64,000 nt of DNA from Bradyrhizobium elkanii USDA 76 (GTDB taxonomy: Bacteria > Pseudomonadota > Alphaproteobacteria > Rhizobiales > Xanthobacteraceae): positions 806,001 through 870,000 of the forward strand of contig NZ_CP066356.1 of assembly GCF_023278185.1 (NCBI RefSeq), in the 5' to 3' direction. The position numbers and the translations under genes were made by a program. The notes under the pieces are model-generated. The model searched no databases. It was not told the origin of the DNA and saw nothing but the letters and a program-made list of their open reading frames with translations. The first letter of the stretch is position 1, and the number at the start of each line of letters is the position of its first letter. This document shows positions 28,491 to 37,064 of this stretch, one piece after another.

Positions 28491-29303
28491 CTATCGAGGC
28501 GCAATTGGCGACGCTTGGTGCGTGGCGTGACCTTCGAAGAAGGAAAGCGGAAAGCCGAAGGTCAATCCCGCACGTATCTCGTTTACCGGATGGCCTCCTG
28601 TGAGCGCGTGCCGGACCGCGATGTCGAAGCTGAGGTCGTCGCGCACACGATAGATCAGCCCGACCAACCCCGAGAAAGTCTCCTCTTTGCCAAACTCGTT
28701 CTCGTAGAAGATTTCGGCGACAGGGCGCACCGTCCAGCTCGTCGGTCCTTCGACGATAGCACCCACGAACACGTCGCCATGATGGTCGCGGGTGATAGCG
28801 GTCTCGGCATTCAGGTGAATGGTGCCCCAATCCCAGCGCCGCGAGACGATGCCGGCCAGGCTGACGCCAGCGCCCGAATTGCCCGTGCTGTCAGGAAGAA
28901 GGACGCCAAATTCGGTCGCAATGCTCGGGCCGGTCTTGTCCTGCAGGCTACCGGGTACGACCACGTGCTTGAGAAACGCTCCGGCTGCAGTCAGGCTGGT
29001 CGGCCCGGGCGGAGAGAGCGACGTTTGTCCCTGGCCTTCGAAGACGGCTTCCCAACTCTCGCTCAGACCGTAGTTGAGAACCCAGGCCGGCGCGATCAGG
29101 CTTGTTCCGCTCTCATCACGTAAACGTCCGGCCGGCTGGAGCTCGACCTCCATTTCCCCCTTCTTGGCAACGGCGGCATCGGTGCCATCGAAGGGGCGAT
29201 AGGCCGAGGCGGGGGCAGACCAGGCGATCAGTCCAAGAGCGATCATGAAGCGAGGCGCAAGGCATCTCGAACAGCTGCAAAAGCTCCGGCTGCGTTTCCA
29301 CAT
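28491..29303 (-). CDS. putative outer-membrane beta-barrel protein
   Basis: A 270-residue exported protein. The signal peptide has an Arg/Ser/Cys-rich n-region and MIALGLIAWSAPASA. The mature part alternates short amphipathic strands (for example VLNYGLSESWEAVFEGQGQ, TIHLNAETAITRD, FDIAVRHAL) with a terminal aromatic-rich strand (LTFGFPLSFF), fitting a transporter/phenol-MetA-degradation-like barrel. The start at 29303 has GGGGAG 7 bases upstream. It is the last gene of a minus-strand cluster, 25 bases after the phosphatase-propeller gene. Specific function unknown. Confidence 0.7.
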   Translation of the reverse strand: MWKRSRSFCSCSRCLAPRFMIALGLIAWSAPASAYRPFDGTDAAVAKKGEMEVELQPAGRLRDESGTSLIAPAWVLNYGLSESWEAVFEGQGQTSLSPPGPTSLTAAGAFLKHVVVPGSLQDKTGPSIATEFGVLLPDSTGNSGAGVSLAGIVSRRWDWGTIHLNAETAITRDHHGDVFVGAIVEGPTSWTVRPVAEIFYENEFGKEETFSGLVGLIYRVRDDLSFDIAVRHALTGGHPVNEIRAGLTFGFPLSFFEGHATHQASPIAPR

Positions 29304-29328: not shown

Positions 29329-30753
29329 TCAAGGCATTGGCTTGAACACCCAGATTGCCGCCGGTCCGGCAGGCCCCGCGCGAACCGCAACAAACAGACG
29401 GTCCATCTCCGGCACAAAGAGCGATGTTCGTGCGCCCGTCGCCGTCGGCAGCCGCGCGGTCAGTCGATAGGCCGCTCCATCAATCTCAAATACATCGACG
29501 TATCCACCGCCGCAGCTCACATAAATGCGTCCGCGCTTTGCATCTACAAAGAGGTCGTCGGCATCGCCGCAAGTGCCGATGGCTGCAATCGCCTTGCCGT
29601 CGGTCGAAAAGGCCGCAAGCTCGGCTGGGCTGCGATACACCAGGAGAACGCGACTTCGTTCGTGATCGATGGCCATCGCGAAATTACCGCCCTTGTCCAA
29701 CGGCCAGCTGGTGAGTTGTTTCCCGGAAGCAACGTCCACCACCGCGACGGCTCGCGCGTCAGGCAGATTGACAAAGATGCGCCCACTATCGGGCTGAAGC
29801 TGGAAGCTTTCCGGATGTGCCTTAAGGAGTATGCTCCGGACCTTCGTCCGGGTGGATGGGTCGACGACTGCCAGGCCACCATCGCCATAGCCGACGATGA
29901 CGCGCTTGGCCGCCGCATCGACCCGGATATTGTCGGCGTCGCTGCCGAGTTCGATTCGCCCGGTCGCCTTGTACTGATTGGCTTCGTACAGTTGTACCGA
30001 TCCGTCGCGGGCGTTGGCGACGTAGAGGCTGTCGGTCGACGGCTCATAGCCGACGCCTTGGGGTTCGTTCAATCCGGTAATGGTTCGAAGCAGACTGCGC
30101 GCAGCCAGATCGACGACGCCGACGCTGTCATTGCCGAGCTCGGCCACGAACAGTCGCTGCCGCTTCAGGTCGACCGCCAGGTGATCAATCCGACCGCGGA
30201 CATCGCCGAGCAGGATCTTCGTTTCGAGCTGAAGGGGCGTTTTGTCTCCTGCCGGTTCAGTTGCCGCTGCCAGCGTCGGAATGAGGGCGTCGATGCGCCG
30301 GGCTATCTGATCCCGGGCCGACTCATAATCATCGATACCCAAGGGAATGCCGGACCAGTAGGTCACGTCGGCCCGTCCGTGCCGCTCGGGGATCTGATCG
30401 AACGCGACCCCCTGGTCTGCCGCGGCCATGTCGTCGATGGTCAGCTGTTGCGGTGTGTTGGCTGCCTCCAGACCATCGAGTGCAAGGCCATCCTGGACCC
30501 TGACCGGAACCGACCGATAAAGGTCGATGCCGCGTGAGACCGCCCTGAATCGCAATCCGCGCTCCTGGGCAGCCTTGTTGAAATAGGCCGCCGCCATCTG
30601 GCTGTTCACCACGCCGTGCAGGCAAACAAAGACAACGATCTTGCCATCGTCCGCCGGCGCCGGCCGAGCCGATGTCAGCGCGATCGCAAGCAATATGGCG
30701 GCAATGCGCAGCGTCGCCTCGGCACTCCTGAGCAGCGTTCGCATCGTCAGCAT
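29329..30753 (-). CDS. exported LMW-phosphatase/arsenate-reductase-like domain fused to a YVTN-type beta-propeller
   Basis: A 474-residue exported protein. A signal peptide (to about residue 36, PAPADDG) is followed by a domain resembling low-molecular-weight phosphatases and ArsC arsenate reductases: FVCLHGVVNSQMAAAYFNKA, then FRAVSRGID. The P-loop Cys (about residue 44) is kept, but the Arg of CX5R is Asn (about residue 50), so catalysis is doubtful. From about residue 170 a seven-blade-type propeller begins (RIDHLAVDLKRQRLFVAELG, GVGYEPSTDSLYVANA and similar). The start is ATG 30753; ATG 30744 is also possible. Likely periplasmic binding or sensing role within the oxyanion cluster; function inferred only. 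Confidence 0.75.
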   Translation of the reverse strand: MLTMRTLLRSAEATLRIAAILLAIALTSARPAPADDGKIVVFVCLHGVVNSQMAAAYFNKAAQERGLRFRAVSRGIDLYRSVPVRVQDGLALDGLEAANTPQQLTIDDMAAADQGVAFDQIPERHGRADVTYWSGIPLGIDDYESARDQIARRIDALIPTLAAATEPAGDKTPLQLETKILLGDVRGRIDHLAVDLKRQRLFVAELGNDSVGVVDLAARSLLRTITGLNEPQGVGYEPSTDSLYVANARDGSVQLYEANQYKATGRIELGSDADNIRVDAAAKRVIVGYGDGGLAVVDPSTRTKVRSILLKAHPESFQLQPDSGRIFVNLPDARAVAVVDVASGKQLTSWPLDKGGNFAMAIDHERSRVLLVYRSPAELAAFSTDGKAIAAIGTCGDADDLFVDAKRGRIYVSCGGGYVDVFEIDGAAYRLTARLPTATGARTSLFVPEMDRLFVAVRAGPAGPAAIWVFKPMP

Positions 30754-30801: not shown

Positions 30802-30981
30802 TCATTTCTTGCAGGCTTTCTTGCACATCTGATACTCAGACTTGCAGGTTGGCCCGGCATAGTTCTTCATGCACGCCTTTTGCTGATCGGCGCAGACCTG
30901 GCAGCTGGTCTGGCCGATCGCAGCGTCCATGCCCACAAGAACTCCGACGACAACCATGGACATGACCGTGAGGCTTCGCAT
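30802..30981 (-). CDS. Cys-rich small exported protein
   Basis: A 59-residue protein. A signal peptide (MRSLTVMSMVVVGVLVGMDA, to about residue 25) leaves a mature peptide of some 35 residues with six Cys in the pattern C-x2-C-x6-C-x8-C-x6-C-x3-C and many Lys. Either disulfides or metal binding in the periplasm is possible. GGAGGG stands 7 bases before the ATG. It lies between the DUF1259 gene (23 bases) and the phosphatase-propeller gene (48 bases) in one direction, so it is probably co-transcribed. Not a family I recognise. Confidence 0.72.
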   Translation of the reverse strand: MRSLTVMSMVVVGVLVGMDAAIGQTSCQVCADQQKACMKNYAGPTCKSEYQMCKKACKK

Positions 30982-31004: not shown

Positions 31005-31949
31005 TCAGCTTTTTGTCGTGGCCGTCTTGTCCAGCGCGGCACGCAGGCCCTTGGCGAGCTTGACGGCGTCGTCATTGGCCCAGAAATGCATGAAGAACAG
31101 GCGCGGCTGTTCATCCAGCATGTGGCTGTGCAGCGCGGTGACGTCGATGCCGTGCGTCCGCAGCGCCATGATGACGGGGTTGACCTCGTCATTGGTCAGC
31201 ACGAAATCGCCGGTGATCGCCGCCTTGCCGCCGCCGGTCGGTTGGAAGTTGATGCCGATGGCGACGCCCAACGGACCGACCGGGCTCAATGCCATGCCCT
31301 CTTCAGTGATCGGATCGCGGCGGGGCACGTTGAACTGATAGACGCCGCCATTGGCCTGGCCCTTGACGCCGATGATCTGGTCGAGCTGCGCGGTATCGAG
31401 ATCGATGGCCGGCGGCGGCGCGGCCGGCGCCGCGGCCGTGAGCGGTGTCTTGCTTTCCGCGAGCCCATCCCGGATCGCGGCGGCGATCTTGACCGGGTCG
31501 CCGTGGCCGGCGACGTGCATGTAGAAGGTGGCCGGGCTCGCGCCAAGCAAATGGTTGTGCACGGCCGTGATCTGCATACCGTTGCTGATCATCTTCAGCA
31601 TCACAGGGTTGATCTCGGATTCGAGCAGCACCAGGTCGCCCATCGCCATGACGCCGTCGTGCATTGGCTTGAAGGCGACCCAGCCGCCGAGCGCCAGCGC
31701 CGGCTTGATGGTGACGCCGTCGAGCGTCACCGCAAGGTCGCTCCGCGGAAAGCCGTAGCGATGCACGTCGCCGGTAACGGCGGGTTTTCTGCCCAGCGTG
31801 TCGTCGACCTTCTGCCAGTCGATCGCCTGCGCATGCGCCGACGAGACGAACGGCTCGGCAAACACCTGCCAGTCGATCTTTTGCGCGCTCCCGCCTGTGG
31901 CGAAGAGACAGGCACCGATGCCGATCAGCGCCGAAATCGTGTGTCGCAT
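31005..31949 (-). CDS. exported tandem DUF1259 (LppY/LpqO-like) protein
   Basis: A 314-residue exported protein. After a signal peptide (ending GGSAQ) two related DUF1259 units follow, each starting with a D...L/I..G-(K/R) segment and holding GDV/FNVPR and a His-containing signature (AVHNHLLGASPATFYMHVAG in the first, ALHSHMLDEQPRLFFMHFW in the second), separated by an Ala/Pro linker near residue 175. Family function is not established; the paired His residues suggest metal binding. GGGAGC precedes the ATG. Part of the minus-strand cluster with chrA. Confidence 0.82.
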   Translation of the reverse strand: MRHTISALIGIGACLFATGGSAQKIDWQVFAEPFVSSAHAQAIDWQKVDDTLGRKPAVTGDVHRYGFPRSDLAVTLDGVTIKPALALGGWVAFKPMHDGVMAMGDLVLLESEINPVMLKMISNGMQITAVHNHLLGASPATFYMHVAGHGDPVKIAAAIRDGLAESKTPLTAAAPAAPPPAIDLDTAQLDQIIGVKGQANGGVYQFNVPRRDPITEEGMALSPVGPLGVAIGINFQPTGGGKAAITGDFVLTNDEVNPVIMALRTHGIDVTALHSHMLDEQPRLFFMHFWANDDAVKLAKGLRAALDKTATTKS

Positions 31950-31993: not shown

Positions 31994-32326
31994 CTATTGC
32001 TTCGAGAGCCCGACGATGGTCCGGAATCCGGCGATGCTCTGCACCGCGATTTCGACGGGATCGCCGAAGCGGACGGCATTGAAGATCAGGCCGTCCTGAA
32101 CCTTGAACGATTCGATCCGGTCCGGAGACAGCCGTATCAACAGCGCGTCGTTGCGTTCATCGACGCGATCGACGACGCCGCGCAGCGTCTCGCTCGCCTG
32201 CGGATGGACCATCGCCGCCTGCAATGTGACGGCCGCGTCCTGCTGCTCGTCGAGGGCGGCCGGTACTGCCAGGGTTGCGCCCGGCCCCAGCACGGCCATG
32301 CACAGGGCCACAATAGCTCTCATCAT
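31994..32326 (-). CDS. small exported beta-rich protein
   Basis: A 110-residue protein with a signal peptide (to about LAVPAAL). The C-terminal 65 residues (LRGVVDRVDERNDALLIRLS, then IESFKVQDGLIFNAVRFGD) are predicted to be beta strands and resemble small OB-like periplasmic proteins such as CusF in outline; no Met/Trp copper site is evident. GGAG lies 8 bases before the ATG at 32326; a GTG three codons upstream is in frame. Probably co-transcribed with the PepSY and DUF1259 genes. Confidence 0.68.
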   Translation of the reverse strand: MMRAIVALCMAVLGPGATLAVPAALDEQQDAAVTLQAAMVHPQASETLRGVVDRVDERNDALLIRLSPDRIESFKVQDGLIFNAVRFGDPVEIAVQSIAGFRTIVGLSKQ

Positions 32327-32371
32327 GATTGTCACTCCATCGATTGGTCGACGACTTTCGCGCGCGCAAGC

Positions 32372-32665: not shown

Positions 32666-34057
32666 TCAGATGACGCCGGCGAGGCGCAGCAGCACGCCCG
32701 TGATGCAGGACGCGGCAAGGACACCGAGCATCCCCGCATTGAAGCGGAAGATCGCGATCGCGGCGGCGATGGACAGCGCCAGTGCCGGCCAGTCGACGCT
32801 GCCGGGTACCGGCGCGTCGAACGACAGGCCAAACCCGTGCACCGCGAAGGTTTGCCGGAACAGCGTATGCAGCGCGAACCAGATCGATAGGTTGAGGATC
32901 ACGCCGACCACGGCGGCGGTGATCGCCGAGAGCGCGCCCGCCAACGCCTTGTTGCCGCGCAGCGCCTCGATGTAGGGCGCTCCGACGAAGATCCACAGGA
33001 AGCACGGCGTGAACGTCACCCAGGTCGCGAGCAACCCGCCGAGCGTGGCGGCAAGCATCGGCGACAGCCCGCTTGCCTCGCGGAACGCGGCCATGAAGCC
33101 CACGAACTGCACCACCATGATCAGCGGGCCGGGCGTGGTCTCGGCCATGCCGAGCCCGTCCAGCATCTCGCGCGGGCTGACCCAGTGATAGTAGTCCGCG
33201 GCCTGTTGCGCGACATAGGCGAGCACGGCGTAGGCGCCGCCGAACGTCACCATCGCCATCTTGCTGAAGAAGATCGCGATCTGCGTGAACACGTCGCCGG
33301 GCCCGAGCGCAACGAGCAGGGCGAACACCGGCACCAGCCAGAGCGCGAGCCAGATCGCGCCGACCCGCAAGGTGCGCGATGCGTTGGGACGGACATGATC
33401 CGGCACCGCTTCACCGAGCATGCCGTCGATCACGGCGGAATTCTTGCCGCCATGCTCGATCGCCGCAAATTCGCTCCGGCCGAGGCGTGCGCCGATCAGA
33501 CCTGTGACCGCGGCGGCTCCGATGATCACCGGAAACGGCACGGCGAAGAAGAAGATGGCGACGAAGGCGATCGCCGCGAGCGCGATCATCACCCGGTTGC
33601 GCAGCGCGCGCTTGCCGACCCGCACCACGGCCTGGATCACGATGGCCAGCACCGCGGCCTTCAGGCCGAAGAACAGCGCCTCGACAAACCCGACATTGCC
33701 ATATGTCGCATAGATATAGCTGAGGCCCATGATGGCGAAGATGCCGGGCAGGATGAACAGCCCGCCCGCCACGATGCCGCCGAGCGTGCGGTGCAGTAGC
33801 CAGCCGATATAGGTCGCCAGCTGCTGCGCCTCCGGCCCCGGCAGCAGCATGCAGTAGTTGAGGGCGTGCAGGAAACGCCCCTCCGAGATCCAGTTCTTCT
33901 CCTCGACCAGGATGCGATGCATCACCGCGATCTGGCCGGCCGGTCCGCCAAAGCTCAGGATGGCGACGCGCATCCAGACCAGCAGCGCCTCGTTGAAGGA
34001 GATGCCGTGCGCGGGCTCATGCCCGCGCGCCTTCGCTGTCGTTGCGACGTCGGTCAT
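32666..34057 (-). CDS. chrA: chromate transporter ChrA
   Basis: A 463-residue inner-membrane protein of the CHR family, which exports chromate by proton-linked antiport. Two homologous CHR halves are present: LSFGGPAGQIAVMH and LLPGPEAQQLATYIG in the first, VTFGGAYAVLAYVAQQ and TTPGPLIMVVQFVGFMAAF in the second. About ten to twelve spans. The ATG overlaps the TGA of the upstream chrB-like gene (ATGA), so the two are coupled. Central to the resistance reading of this island. Confidence 0.94.
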   Translation of the reverse strand: MTDVATTAKARGHEPAHGISFNEALLVWMRVAILSFGGPAGQIAVMHRILVEEKNWISEGRFLHALNYCMLLPGPEAQQLATYIGWLLHRTLGGIVAGGLFILPGIFAIMGLSYIYATYGNVGFVEALFFGLKAAVLAIVIQAVVRVGKRALRNRVMIALAAIAFVAIFFFAVPFPVIIGAAAVTGLIGARLGRSEFAAIEHGGKNSAVIDGMLGEAVPDHVRPNASRTLRVGAIWLALWLVPVFALLVALGPGDVFTQIAIFFSKMAMVTFGGAYAVLAYVAQQAADYYHWVSPREMLDGLGMAETTPGPLIMVVQFVGFMAAFREASGLSPMLAATLGGLLATWVTFTPCFLWIFVGAPYIEALRGNKALAGALSAITAAVVGVILNLSIWFALHTLFRQTFAVHGFGLSFDAPVPGSVDWPALALSIAAAIAIFRFNAGMLGVLAASCITGVLLRLAGVI

Positions 34058-34872
34058 GGCTTCACCTTGCTGGTCGGCCAGTTGTGCGTCTCCTTGGTCG
34101 CGTCGCGGCACCATCGGTAGAACGCGTCGTAGAGCAGCAGCCCGGCGCTCAACTGCTCGAGGTCGTCGTCGAACATGCGCGACAGCCCGAGCGAGGCGGC
34201 GAGCAGCCCGGGCGCCTCCGGCGAAAGCTCGAGCCGCGCGGTATCGGCCGCTCGCACCATCGTCGCGAGCCGCTCCAGCGCCGGCGTCGCGAGGCCGAAT
34301 TCCTTGACCATCACGTCGAAGGTGCAGAGTTCGCCGCGATGGCTCCAGAACACGTTCTCGATGTCGAACGGCGTGGCGTCGAACCGTTCGGCGACCCCCT
34401 CGACCTCTGCCGATGTGACGAACAGGAACACCGCCGCGGGATCGACGAAGCGGCGGATCAGCCATGGACAGGCGATGCGATCGATCTTCGGCCGCGATCG
34501 CGTCACCCAGACGGTGCGGCCCCGTCCGTCGCGTTTCGGAATCTTGTCGGCGGGAACGGTCGGTAGCTCCGCTTCCCGCCAGCCGAGGTGGCCGCCCTCG
34601 AGAATCTCGGCCGTGATGTTGCTGCAGCGGAGCCAGGCGGCGGTGCCTTCGGCAAGCTTCTGCCCCTTCTGGCAGACCACGACCACGGACTGGCCGGTGA
34701 GGCGGGAAGCCCAGTCCTGGACGTCGAGATGGGAGTAGCGGACCGCGCCCGGAATCAGGCGCGGATCGGCGGCGAAATCTTCATCGAGGCGAACGTCGAC
34801 GAGCGTCGGCGCCTTGGCCGTGCCGATGAGACGGGACAATTTTTCGGATGAGATCGATGTGTATGACGACAT
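34054..34872 (-). CDS. rhodanese domain fused to ChrB-type chromate resistance domain
   Basis: A 272-residue cytosolic fusion. Residues 1-110 form a rhodanese (LVDVRLDEDFA, VVVVCQKGQKLAEGTAAWLR with the persulfide Cys near residue 66, and GGHLGW). The remainder matches the C-terminal domain of ChrB (VWVTRSRPKIDRIACPWLIR, then RFVDPAAVFLFV). ChrB proteins regulate or support chromate export. The start at 34872 gives the MSSYTSISSEKL N-terminus with AAGGGCG upstream. Coupled to chrA by a 4-base overlap and first gene after the promoter at 34947. Confidence 0.88.
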   Translation of the reverse strand: MSSYTSISSEKLSRLIGTAKAPTLVDVRLDEDFAADPRLIPGAVRYSHLDVQDWASRLTGQSVVVVCQKGQKLAEGTAAWLRCSNITAEILEGGHLGWREAELPTVPADKIPKRDGRGRTVWVTRSRPKIDRIACPWLIRRFVDPAAVFLFVTSAEVEGVAERFDATPFDIENVFWSHRGELCTFDVMVKEFGLATPALERLATMVRAADTARLELSPEAPGLLAASLGLSRMFDDDLEQLSAGLLLYDAFYRWCRDATKETHNWPTSKVKP

Positions 34873-35256
34873 GGTGCGCCCTTGGTGACAGGACGCGATT
34901 CTTGGGCGTGTCGCCTCGCGGGGAGATCGCACATCCCCGGAGCCGTATCAAAAGCCCTGATCCCCGGGCTGTCAACCGGGCTTTGCCAAATCCCGCAGCA
35001 ATCGCCGATCGACAGTCACGAAAACTTCATCGCGCAGCTTGGAACGAACGTCCGCTGCAGGAGCGGCAGGCTGCCCCTTCAATCGCCAACCGAAGCCGGC
35101 TCGAGCCGATGGGTCACATCTCCATCTCCGGCGAGTTGCGAATAGGAACATACAATTCGCTGCCGAGTTGCGCGGTGGCAGGGACCAGCTCAGGTAGATG
35201 CCGACACCGCGAACATGTCGCACTCCCGCCTGCACTCATTGGAGCAATGCCGATTG
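34873..35256. other. 384-base intergenic region upstream of the chr cluster
   Basis: No convincing gene. It contains the minus-strand promoter at 34947-34975 and, towards 35256, the upstream region of the plus-strand exported gene. Confidence 0.55.
34947..34975 (-). promoter_or_regulatory. sigma70-like promoter of the chr cluster
   Basis: On the minus strand TTGACA (34975-34970), a 17-base spacer and TTTGAT (34952-34947; four of six to TATAAT) lie about 75 bases before the rhodanese-ChrB start. The -35 is a perfect consensus, rare in this GC-rich window. Confidence 0.5.
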
Positions 35257-35709: not shown

Positions 35710-35988
35710 ATGTCGCATACCATCAAGCACAAGTCCAAGCTCGTCGGCCGGGTTCGCCGCATCAAGGGCCAGCTGGAGGCCGTCGAGCGCGCGCTGGAGT
35801 CCGAGATTGGTTGTGCCGACGTGTTGATGCTGGTGGCCTCGGTTCGCGGCGCCATCAACGGGCTCACCGCGGAATTGCTCGAGGATCACATCCGCCACCA
35901 CGTCGTGGATCCTGCCCGGGAAAAGGATCCCGAGAAGGCGCAGGGCGCCGCGGACCTGATCGACGTCGTTCGTACCTACTTGAAGTGA
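35710..35988 (+). CDS. rcnR: metal-sensing repressor, CsoR/RcnR family
   Basis: A 92-residue all-alpha repressor of the DUF156 family. The N-terminal helix has MSHTIKHKSKLVGRVRRIKG; the N-terminal His-3 matches the RcnR (Ni/Co) pattern. Metal ligands are seen as Cys in ESEIGCADVLM and His in DHIRHHVVD. Without metal it should block the promoter in front of it. It is followed 5 bases later by the exporter gene, so repressor and pump form one metal-inducible unit. FrmR-type sensing is less likely because of the neighbour. Confidence 0.88.
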   Translation: MSHTIKHKSKLVGRVRRIKGQLEAVERALESEIGCADVLMLVASVRGAINGLTAELLEDHIRHHVVDPAREKDPEKAQGAADLIDVVRTYLK

Positions 35989-35993
35989 ATGCC

Positions 35994-37064
35994 ATGACCG
36001 ATCTGTCTCAGCTGCTCCAGCAGGGCAGCGCGCATGCATGGCTGTTCGTACCCAGCGCGATCCTGCTCGGTGCGTTGCACGGGCTCGAGCCCGGCCACTC
36101 CAAGACGATGATGGCGGCCTTCATCATCGCGATCCGCGGCACCGTGGTGCAGGCGGTGCTGCTCGGCCTGTCGGCGACGATCTCGCACACCGCCATCGTC
36201 TGGCTGGTCGCGCTCGCCGGGCTTCACTTCGGCCAGCAATGGTCCGGAGAACGCAGCGAAGCCTGGCTGCAACTGGTGTCGGCGGTGATCATCATCGCGA
36301 TCGCGGCCTGGATGGCCTGGCGCACCTGGCGCGAGCAGACTGCCGAACACGATCACGATCATCACCATCATCACGACGAAACGCGCCGGCTGGTCCTGGC
36401 CGGACAATCGCTTTCGCTCGAGGTCTTCGAGGACGGCGTGCCGCCGCGCTGGCGGTTGCGCAGCGAGGCCGGTGTGCTGCCCGCGGCCGGCGACGTTGCC
36501 GTCGTGACGATCCGTCCCGACGGCAGCGAGCAACGCTTTCGTTTCGCCGGCCACGGCGGCTATCTGGAAAGCATCGACGAAATTCCGGAGCCGCATGCGT
36601 TCAAGGCGCGCGTCTCGGTGCGGGCGGACATGGCGGAAGTCCTGTTCGAGGAGCATGATCATGCGCATATGGATCTCGGCGACGAGGACGACGCGCATGC
36701 GCGCGCGCACGCCGCCGACATCCGCAAGCGCTTTGCCGGACGCACCGTCACGACGTGGCAGATCATCCTGTTCGGCCTGACCGGCGGGCTGATTCCGTGT
36801 CCGGCGGCGATCACTGTGCTGCTGCTCTGCCTCCAGCTCAAGCAGTTCAGCCTCGGCTTCGTGCTGGTGCTTTGCTTCGGCATCGGGCTTGCGATCACCA
36901 TGGTCTCCGCCGGTGTTGCGGCCGCGCTGAGCCTGCGTCATGTCGAGCGCCATTGGGCCGGCTTCAGCCGCTTTGCCCATCGTGCTCCCTACGTGTCGGC
37001 CGCGCTGATCGTGCTCGTCGGCCTCTACACGGGCTGGCTCGGGTTGCATGGGATCACGGCGTGA
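35994..37064 (+). CDS. rcnA: nickel/cobalt efflux protein, RcnA family, with a large loop insert
   Basis: A 356-residue inner-membrane exporter of the NicO/RcnA superfamily, with LGALHGLEPGHSKTMMAAF in the first span region and SATISHTAIVWLVALAG in the next. The cytosolic loop begins with HDHDHHHHHDE (about residue 118), continues with a beta-rich stretch of some 90 residues (LVLAGQSLSLEVFEDGVPPR, then QRFRFAGHGGYLE) and ends with a second His/Asp-rich segment (EEHDHAHMDLGDEDDAHARA) before the GGLIPCPAAITVLLL span. Plain RcnA has a much shorter His loop. Co-transcribed with rcnR. Confidence 0.88.
   Translation: MTDLSQLLQQGSAHAWLFVPSAILLGALHGLEPGHSKTMMAAFIIAIRGTVVQAVLLGLSATISHTAIVWLVALAGLHFGQQWSGERSEAWLQLVSAVIIIAIAAWMAWRTWREQTAEHDHDHHHHHDETRRLVLAGQSLSLEVFEDGVPPRWRLRSEAGVLPAAGDVAVVTIRPDGSEQRFRFAGHGGYLESIDEIPEPHAFKARVSVRADMAEVLFEEHDHAHMDLGDEDDAHARAHAADIRKRFAGRTVTTWQIILFGLTGGLIPCPAAITVLLLCLQLKQFSLGFVLVLCFGIGLAITMVSAGVAAALSLRHVERHWAGFSRFAHRAPYVSAALIVLVGLYTGWLGLHGITA

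Follow-up and report, generated by a model that had tools for sequence, protein, structure and literature searches.

The window analysed here, a stretch of 64,000 nucleotides of Bradyrhizobium elkanii DNA, carries on its minus strand a gene (29329..30753) whose product raises the question of what a phosphatase-like domain might do in a protein predicted to be exported once the catalytic arginine of its P-loop has given way to asparagine. The answer that we favour, with about an even chance of being right, is a non-catalytic periplasmic oxyanion-binding module, chromate being the most likely oxyanion, mounted on a ChrK-like accessory protein of a chromate-resistance operon. The open reading frame, Pfam, the predicted models and their fold matches describe the 474-residue product as an LMW-like domain fused to a ChrK-like beta-propeller. 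Residues 1–35, approximately, (30649..30753) form a predicted signal peptide, judged by eye; residues 37–163 (30265..30645) correspond to an LMW-PTP/ArsC-fold domain on the evidence of Pfam, the predicted model and fold matches; and residues 175–474 (29332..30231) make up a YncE/YVTN-type, ChrK-like propeller according to profile, sequence and fold matches, all of them on the minus strand.

The LMW domain was modelled and searched against the PDB separately from the whole chain, because the matches of the whole-length model filled up with propellers. By sequence profile and predicted fold it fits PF01451 (LMW-PTP/ArsC superfamily), and the fold of the modelled domain is that of arsenate reductases in the PDB fold search. 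Both halves of the architecture proposed in the preliminary description, an LMW-phosphatase/ArsC-like domain joined to a YVTN-type propeller, are thus borne out by profile and model matches. The P-loop, C44-LHGVV-N50-S (30601..30624, minus strand; sequence reading and alignment), places Asn at the position of the catalytic Arg, and the catalytic PF01451 signature CX5R(S/T) is replaced by CX5NS. Catalytic LMW-PTPs and thioredoxin/mycothiol-type arsenate reductases (PF01451) have the fold and the P-loop Cys and Ser in common with the fusion protein, which differs from them in its Asn for Arg, its single domain Cys (the further redox Cys of thioredoxin-coupled ArsC is absent), its predicted export, its propeller and the lack of the DP general acid. 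Judging from its N-terminus, the fusion protein would be exported to the periplasm. The signal peptide had been regarded as an oddity of this protein; a signal-like N-terminus was indeed recognized, but, judged by eye, it is common across the LMW-like group and is no peculiarity.

The Asn at the Arg position is real and not a sequencing slip. The search for the same fusion gave 36 fusion proteins among the 120 matches listed, all 36 with Asn six residues after the Cys (C+6), and the same residue is found in 120/120 shorter relatives (130–219 aa; best 120 of 483), in agreement with the change of CX5R to CX5N (CLHGVVNS) first read in this one protein. The best-named protein matches of the fusion protein come from Bradyrhizobium, as do all 8 named genome records with a match. 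Two phylum-wide sets, of 299 and 398 genomes, showed the Asn-type in the window's own genome and in no other; the larger set also yielded Arg-type genes and a single distant gene of the Lys type (L074/L102). The 248 genomes searched at family level added Lys-type genes from three genomes that belong to a different genus (L036, L037, L038 and L043), Arg-type genes from three genomes (L039–L041) and, from one genome, a match without the LMW P-loop (L042). Since the phylum, family and named-genome searches gave no others, the Asn-type proteins come here only from Bradyrhizobium and metagenome sources.

A profile search widened to more distant members gave 3955 proteins and hinted at where the Asn may have come from. 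Among the best 120, one (P0133) was already known and has Asn, and the other 119 all carry Lys at C+6 (119/119). These Lys-type LMW-like proteins are the nearest wider group, 39–58% identical in small samples. They have Lys, not Asn, in the P-loop and Asp, not Gly, after the conserved Trp, with no propeller in the proteins read; many show a signal-like N-terminus and often a CusF-like C-terminal domain (PF11604, precomputed; P0260 itself scores 24 bits against a cut-off of 27). A plasmid search with P0260 as query gave no matches. Two residues past the Trp, Asp is present in 116/119 Lys-type domains and Gly in 153/156 Asn-type domains among the matches listed; therefore two charged residues at possible active-site positions, Lys and Asp, changed together. 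In a tree of 47 domains the 17 Asn-type rows form one clade (100/100) within the Lys-type rows, while the Arg-type rows, taken as outgroup, stand apart (81/85). Support drops to 87/81 and 85/84 on the branches just outside the Asn clade, and long branches make the placement of L074, L034 and L106 uncertain. Because the Asn clade is nested in the Lys-type group with Arg-type rows as outgroup, Arg probably gave way first to Lys, and Lys later to Asn. The direct loss of Arg proposed earlier is accordingly right as to the missing Arg and incomplete as to the path, with the Asp to Gly change alongside. Many of these proteins are called protein-tyrosine-phosphatase or arsenate reductase at their source, names that are probably misleading for the LMW-like group.

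The same residues bear on whether the domain is still an enzyme, namely a phosphatase, or a reductase of chromate or arsenate, that would act in the periplasm through the Cys44 thiol with another helper (e.g. Arg74, His46 or Asp119). Cys44, His46 and Arg74 are unchanged in 68/68 aligned domains and Asp119 is kept in 68/69, the fold is that of an arsenate reductase and the operon deals with a reducible oxyanion, all of which speak for this reading. We nevertheless consider it improbable, as none of the Asn- and Lys-type relatives examined keeps the Arg and the predicted export would take the protein away from cytosolic thioredoxin. Moreover, no DP general-acid motif lies within 12 residues of the conserved Trp in any Asn-type domain (0/156, text match) and a single Cys, with no second one for an ArsC-type relay, is present in 154/156, both among the matches listed. 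Catalysis of the LMW-PTP/ArsC type is therefore unlikely, given the paired charge loss, the absence of DP and the single Cys.

A domain that does not catalyse need not bind anything, and it could be a structural or protein-docking remnant, once oxyanion-binding or -processing and now only stabilizing or targeting the ChrK-like propeller. The propellers P0037–P0120 (290–381 aa) are too short to hold an LMW domain, which is thus not indispensable to the propeller; in L100 (8613–9800) the LMW core is deleted in frame with the N-terminus and the propeller kept; and both charged candidate active-site residues have been replaced. This reading is ranked second on account of the many propellers without the domain and the core lost in L100, and we hold it to be unlikely. 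Against it, the P-loop is almost invariant, with the exact motif C[QL]HGVVNS in 34/36 listed fusions and 115/120 listed shorter relatives. The LMW domain is under purifying selection, its dN/dS of 0.14 being about as low as that of the propeller (0.13), and residues 1–36 are fast evolving with a dN/dS of 0.88 (nine genomic fusion genes, 36 pairs). In addition, Asn-type proteins without a propeller exist, so the domain is not merely a propeller attachment.

The oxyanion that a binding module might recognize is suggested by the neighbouring genes, a context that the preliminary description had not noticed. The minus strand reads, in order, chrB, chrA, a CusF-like gene, a DUF1259 gene, a small Cys-rich gene, the fusion gene and a downstream gene. 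ChrB (34054..34932) comprises a rhodanese and a ChrB_C domain (Pfam; PF09828, 161 bits) and is the sole ChrB_C match in its genome. ChrA, the chromate efflux transporter (32666..34057), matches PF02417 with 231.6 bits and TIGR00937 above the cut-off; its start was chosen to overlap the end of chrB. The CusF-like small protein (31994..32335) shares 51% identity over 68 aa with the C-terminal domain of P0260; it has no significant Pfam match, and its name rests on PF11604 in relatives. Thus LMW and CusF-like parts lie in one chain in P0260 and in two genes in the window, the LMW part being placed on the propeller. The DUF1259 protein (LppY/LpqO, ChrL-like; 31005..31949) scores 297.7 bits in Pfam. 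The following frame (30802..30981; translation and tblastn) encodes a small exported-looking peptide of 59 aa with six Cys, which has tblastn matches in 10/30 related loci, 7 of them over 57–59 aa. Too short to figure in the list of open reading frames, this peptide may bind Cr(III) or metal as part of the operon. The downstream protein (28491..29303), exported and outer-membrane-like by eye and without a Pfam match, is conserved beside the fusion; its start is uncertain (29303 or 29246), and in L083 its neighbour is a separate propeller. The gaps between these genes measure 23–48 bp, except that chrA and the CusF-like gene lie 330 bp apart, a point against the favoured reading. With chrB and chrA closely spaced on the same strand and PF09828, PF02417 and TIGR00937 all above cut-off, the fusion gene lies in an apparent chromate-resistance operon.

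This linkage recurs across the genus. Matches were found in 21 of 265 Bradyrhizobium genomes, of which G399 (Arg-type) was dropped, leaving 20. In 17 of these 20 (the window and 16/19 others), chrA or chrB lies within approximately 10 kb of the Lys- or Asn-type gene. The control consisted of ordinary Arg-type LMW loci of Bradyrhizobium (20 loci among 26 weak matches listed, all 20 reading CTGNYYRS) and showed chrA or chrB at 0/20, a difference with a Fisher p of 2.6e-8 that overstates the case, because the loci share ancestry, the control is seemingly one family and three control stretches (L114, L119 and L120) are shortened by contig ends. Each of the 20 genomes has 1–4 ChrB_C and 4–10 transporter-domain matches. 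No chrA or chrB was seen in the fetched stretches of L085, L088 and L089, although L088 keeps the Cys-rich gene. Among the 17 positives, the sole chrA/chrB match of L092 and L098 is a ChrB_C 39–42% identical to that of the window, and in L100 and L101 the LMW domain itself is cut. Eight loci (L086, L087, L090, L091, L093, L096, L097 and L100) have a chrA frame that directly adjoins or overlaps that of the fusion; this chrA belongs to another subfamily, 28–29% identical to the window's over 122–169 aa.

Outside Bradyrhizobium, the connection reappears in other arrangements. L102, which stems from another alphaproteobacterial family, has three genes in succession: a Lys-type LMW gene whose product has a signal-like N-terminus, a Fe/Mn SOD-like gene (judged by eye) and a propeller with 49% identity to that of the window. 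A two-component pair followed by chrA is found on the other side. In L106 (1–951), from another genus of the family to which Bradyrhizobium belongs, ChrB_C and a Lys-type LMW domain are fused in one chain, each scoring above the Pfam cut-off. The LMW family has in this way three chr-linked fusion partners: the propeller, ChrB_C (L106) and the CusF-like domain of many Lys-type proteins. The short contigs L103–L105, which carry Lys-type genes, showed no chr gene. On plasmids, propellers 45–55% identical to the window's occur in Sphingobium (split into two annotated genes, with chrB-chrA-SOD) and in Methylobacterium nodulans (with a chrA-like frame, DUF1259 and SOD); other plasmid relatives, e.g. 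of Microvirga and Paraburkholderia, showed neither chrA nor chrB in the part that was read.

The propeller itself is of the YVTN/YncE type and is encoded close to chrA, chrB and DUF1259 in one cluster; in this sense it is ChrK-like. ChrK of Arthrobacter FB24 (Arth_4252) is likewise a YVTN/YncE propeller beside chrA, chrB and DUF1259, and a YncE family gene stands beside a DUF1259 gene in the chr cluster of pMOL28. Unlike the fusion protein, these propellers have no LMW domain, and they are more distant (24–28% identical) and no closer than other YncE proteins. FB24 ChrK matches the window propeller with 27.5% identity (E 6e-12, plasmid collection) within the same wide YncE family, and YncE proteins of Priestia plasmids (18 records) match it about as well, reaching E 1e-10; the kinship with ChrK therefore rests on location and fold. 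E. coli YncE also lacks the LMW domain, and we know of no chr context for it. Cys395 and Cys414 of the propeller are conserved in 48/48 aligned sequences covering them. They were considered as a ChrK signature and rejected, since the similar Cys pair of FB24 ChrK occupies other alignment columns.

Chromate is not the only metal species to which such a cluster could respond, and the module might have to do with Ni, Co or Cu cations or with envelope stress in general, the chr link reflecting a shared metal-resistance island. An RcnR-type repressor and a NicO-type nickel/cobalt transporter (35710–37064, plus strand) are divergent from chrB, a pair that adjoins chrB in L086 and L087 too; the CusF-like partner domain points the same way, and in FB24 chrL also responded to H2O2, 12.5-fold, according to PMC2751784. 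Nickel genes are nevertheless found in only 2/19 other Bradyrhizobium stretches (L086 and L087), compared with 16/19 for chrA/chrB, and the ChrB_C-LMW fusion of L106 likewise speaks against this reading. In PMC2751784, FB24 chrK and chrL are induced by chromate and not by lead or arsenate, and constructs missing regions with chrJ, chrK or chrL have lower chromate resistance; the function of accessory chrK and chrL in Arthrobacter is left open there. A cation or stress role is, on this balance, the least probable of the readings considered, and a slim one.

The favoured reading, an oxyanion-binding module in the periplasm, agrees in part with the binding or sensing role proposed in the preliminary description: it is the best reading left and the operon supplies chromate as candidate ligand, while oxyanion binding, chromate as the ligand and contact with other chr proteins are what we infer. 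In this mechanism the P-loop would keep its backbone cradle together with Cys44 and His46, with Asn for Arg and the general acid missing, and would hold a tetrahedral oxyanion, most likely chromate, without hydrolysis or reduction. The propeller could offer the module to another protein, perhaps ChrA or the outer-membrane-like, CusF-like or Cys-rich product of the cluster. ChrA pumps chromate out of the cytoplasm, and the module might help to capture or report the chromate so exported, or Cr formed from it. The affinity of a P-loop without Arg for anions may be poor.

A wider proposal, put forward tentatively and with chances clearly short of even, is that an as yet unnamed group of exported LMW-PTP/ArsC-fold domains, with its P-loop series from Arg through Lys to Asn, belongs regularly to the chromate-resistance operons of alphaproteobacteria, where it would serve as a receptor for chromate in the periplasm and has been recombined with a ChrK-like propeller, ChrB_C or a CusF-like domain. 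If true, a phosphatase fold has been converted into a sensor or scavenger of oxyanions outside the cytoplasm, and the Arg-Lys-Asn series would show a catalytic P-loop becoming a binding site. We know of no mechanism by which exported proteins encoded in chr clusters act, and a fold that binds oxyanions in its relatives and is fused to several chr proteins would provide a testable molecule for them. The combination of known parts, an LMW-like domain and a ChrK-like propeller in a chr cluster, is real, and no earlier description of it was found. A literature search, mostly short of subscription journals, gave no report of a chr operon with an LMW-type domain; PMC11647585 and PMC9329874 were rejected as such reports, as in their accessible parts the terms co-occur by chance and the genes are ars genes.

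Two further observations concern individual loci. L084 (6063–7956; genome G478) holds a distant propeller, a ChrB_C gene and a Lys-type LMW gene (CLHGSAKS) without a signal-like N-terminus, which make up a second chr-linked set in this genome beside the full chrB-chrA-chrL-LMW set. Near the LMW-like genes of L088 (11168–11833) and L085 (11883–12608) there are look-alike exported-looking proteins. The chr operon of Cupriavidus STM 6070 contains, according to PMC7060636, a concanavalin-like exported protein, to which these two perhaps correspond, the resemblance being by eye.
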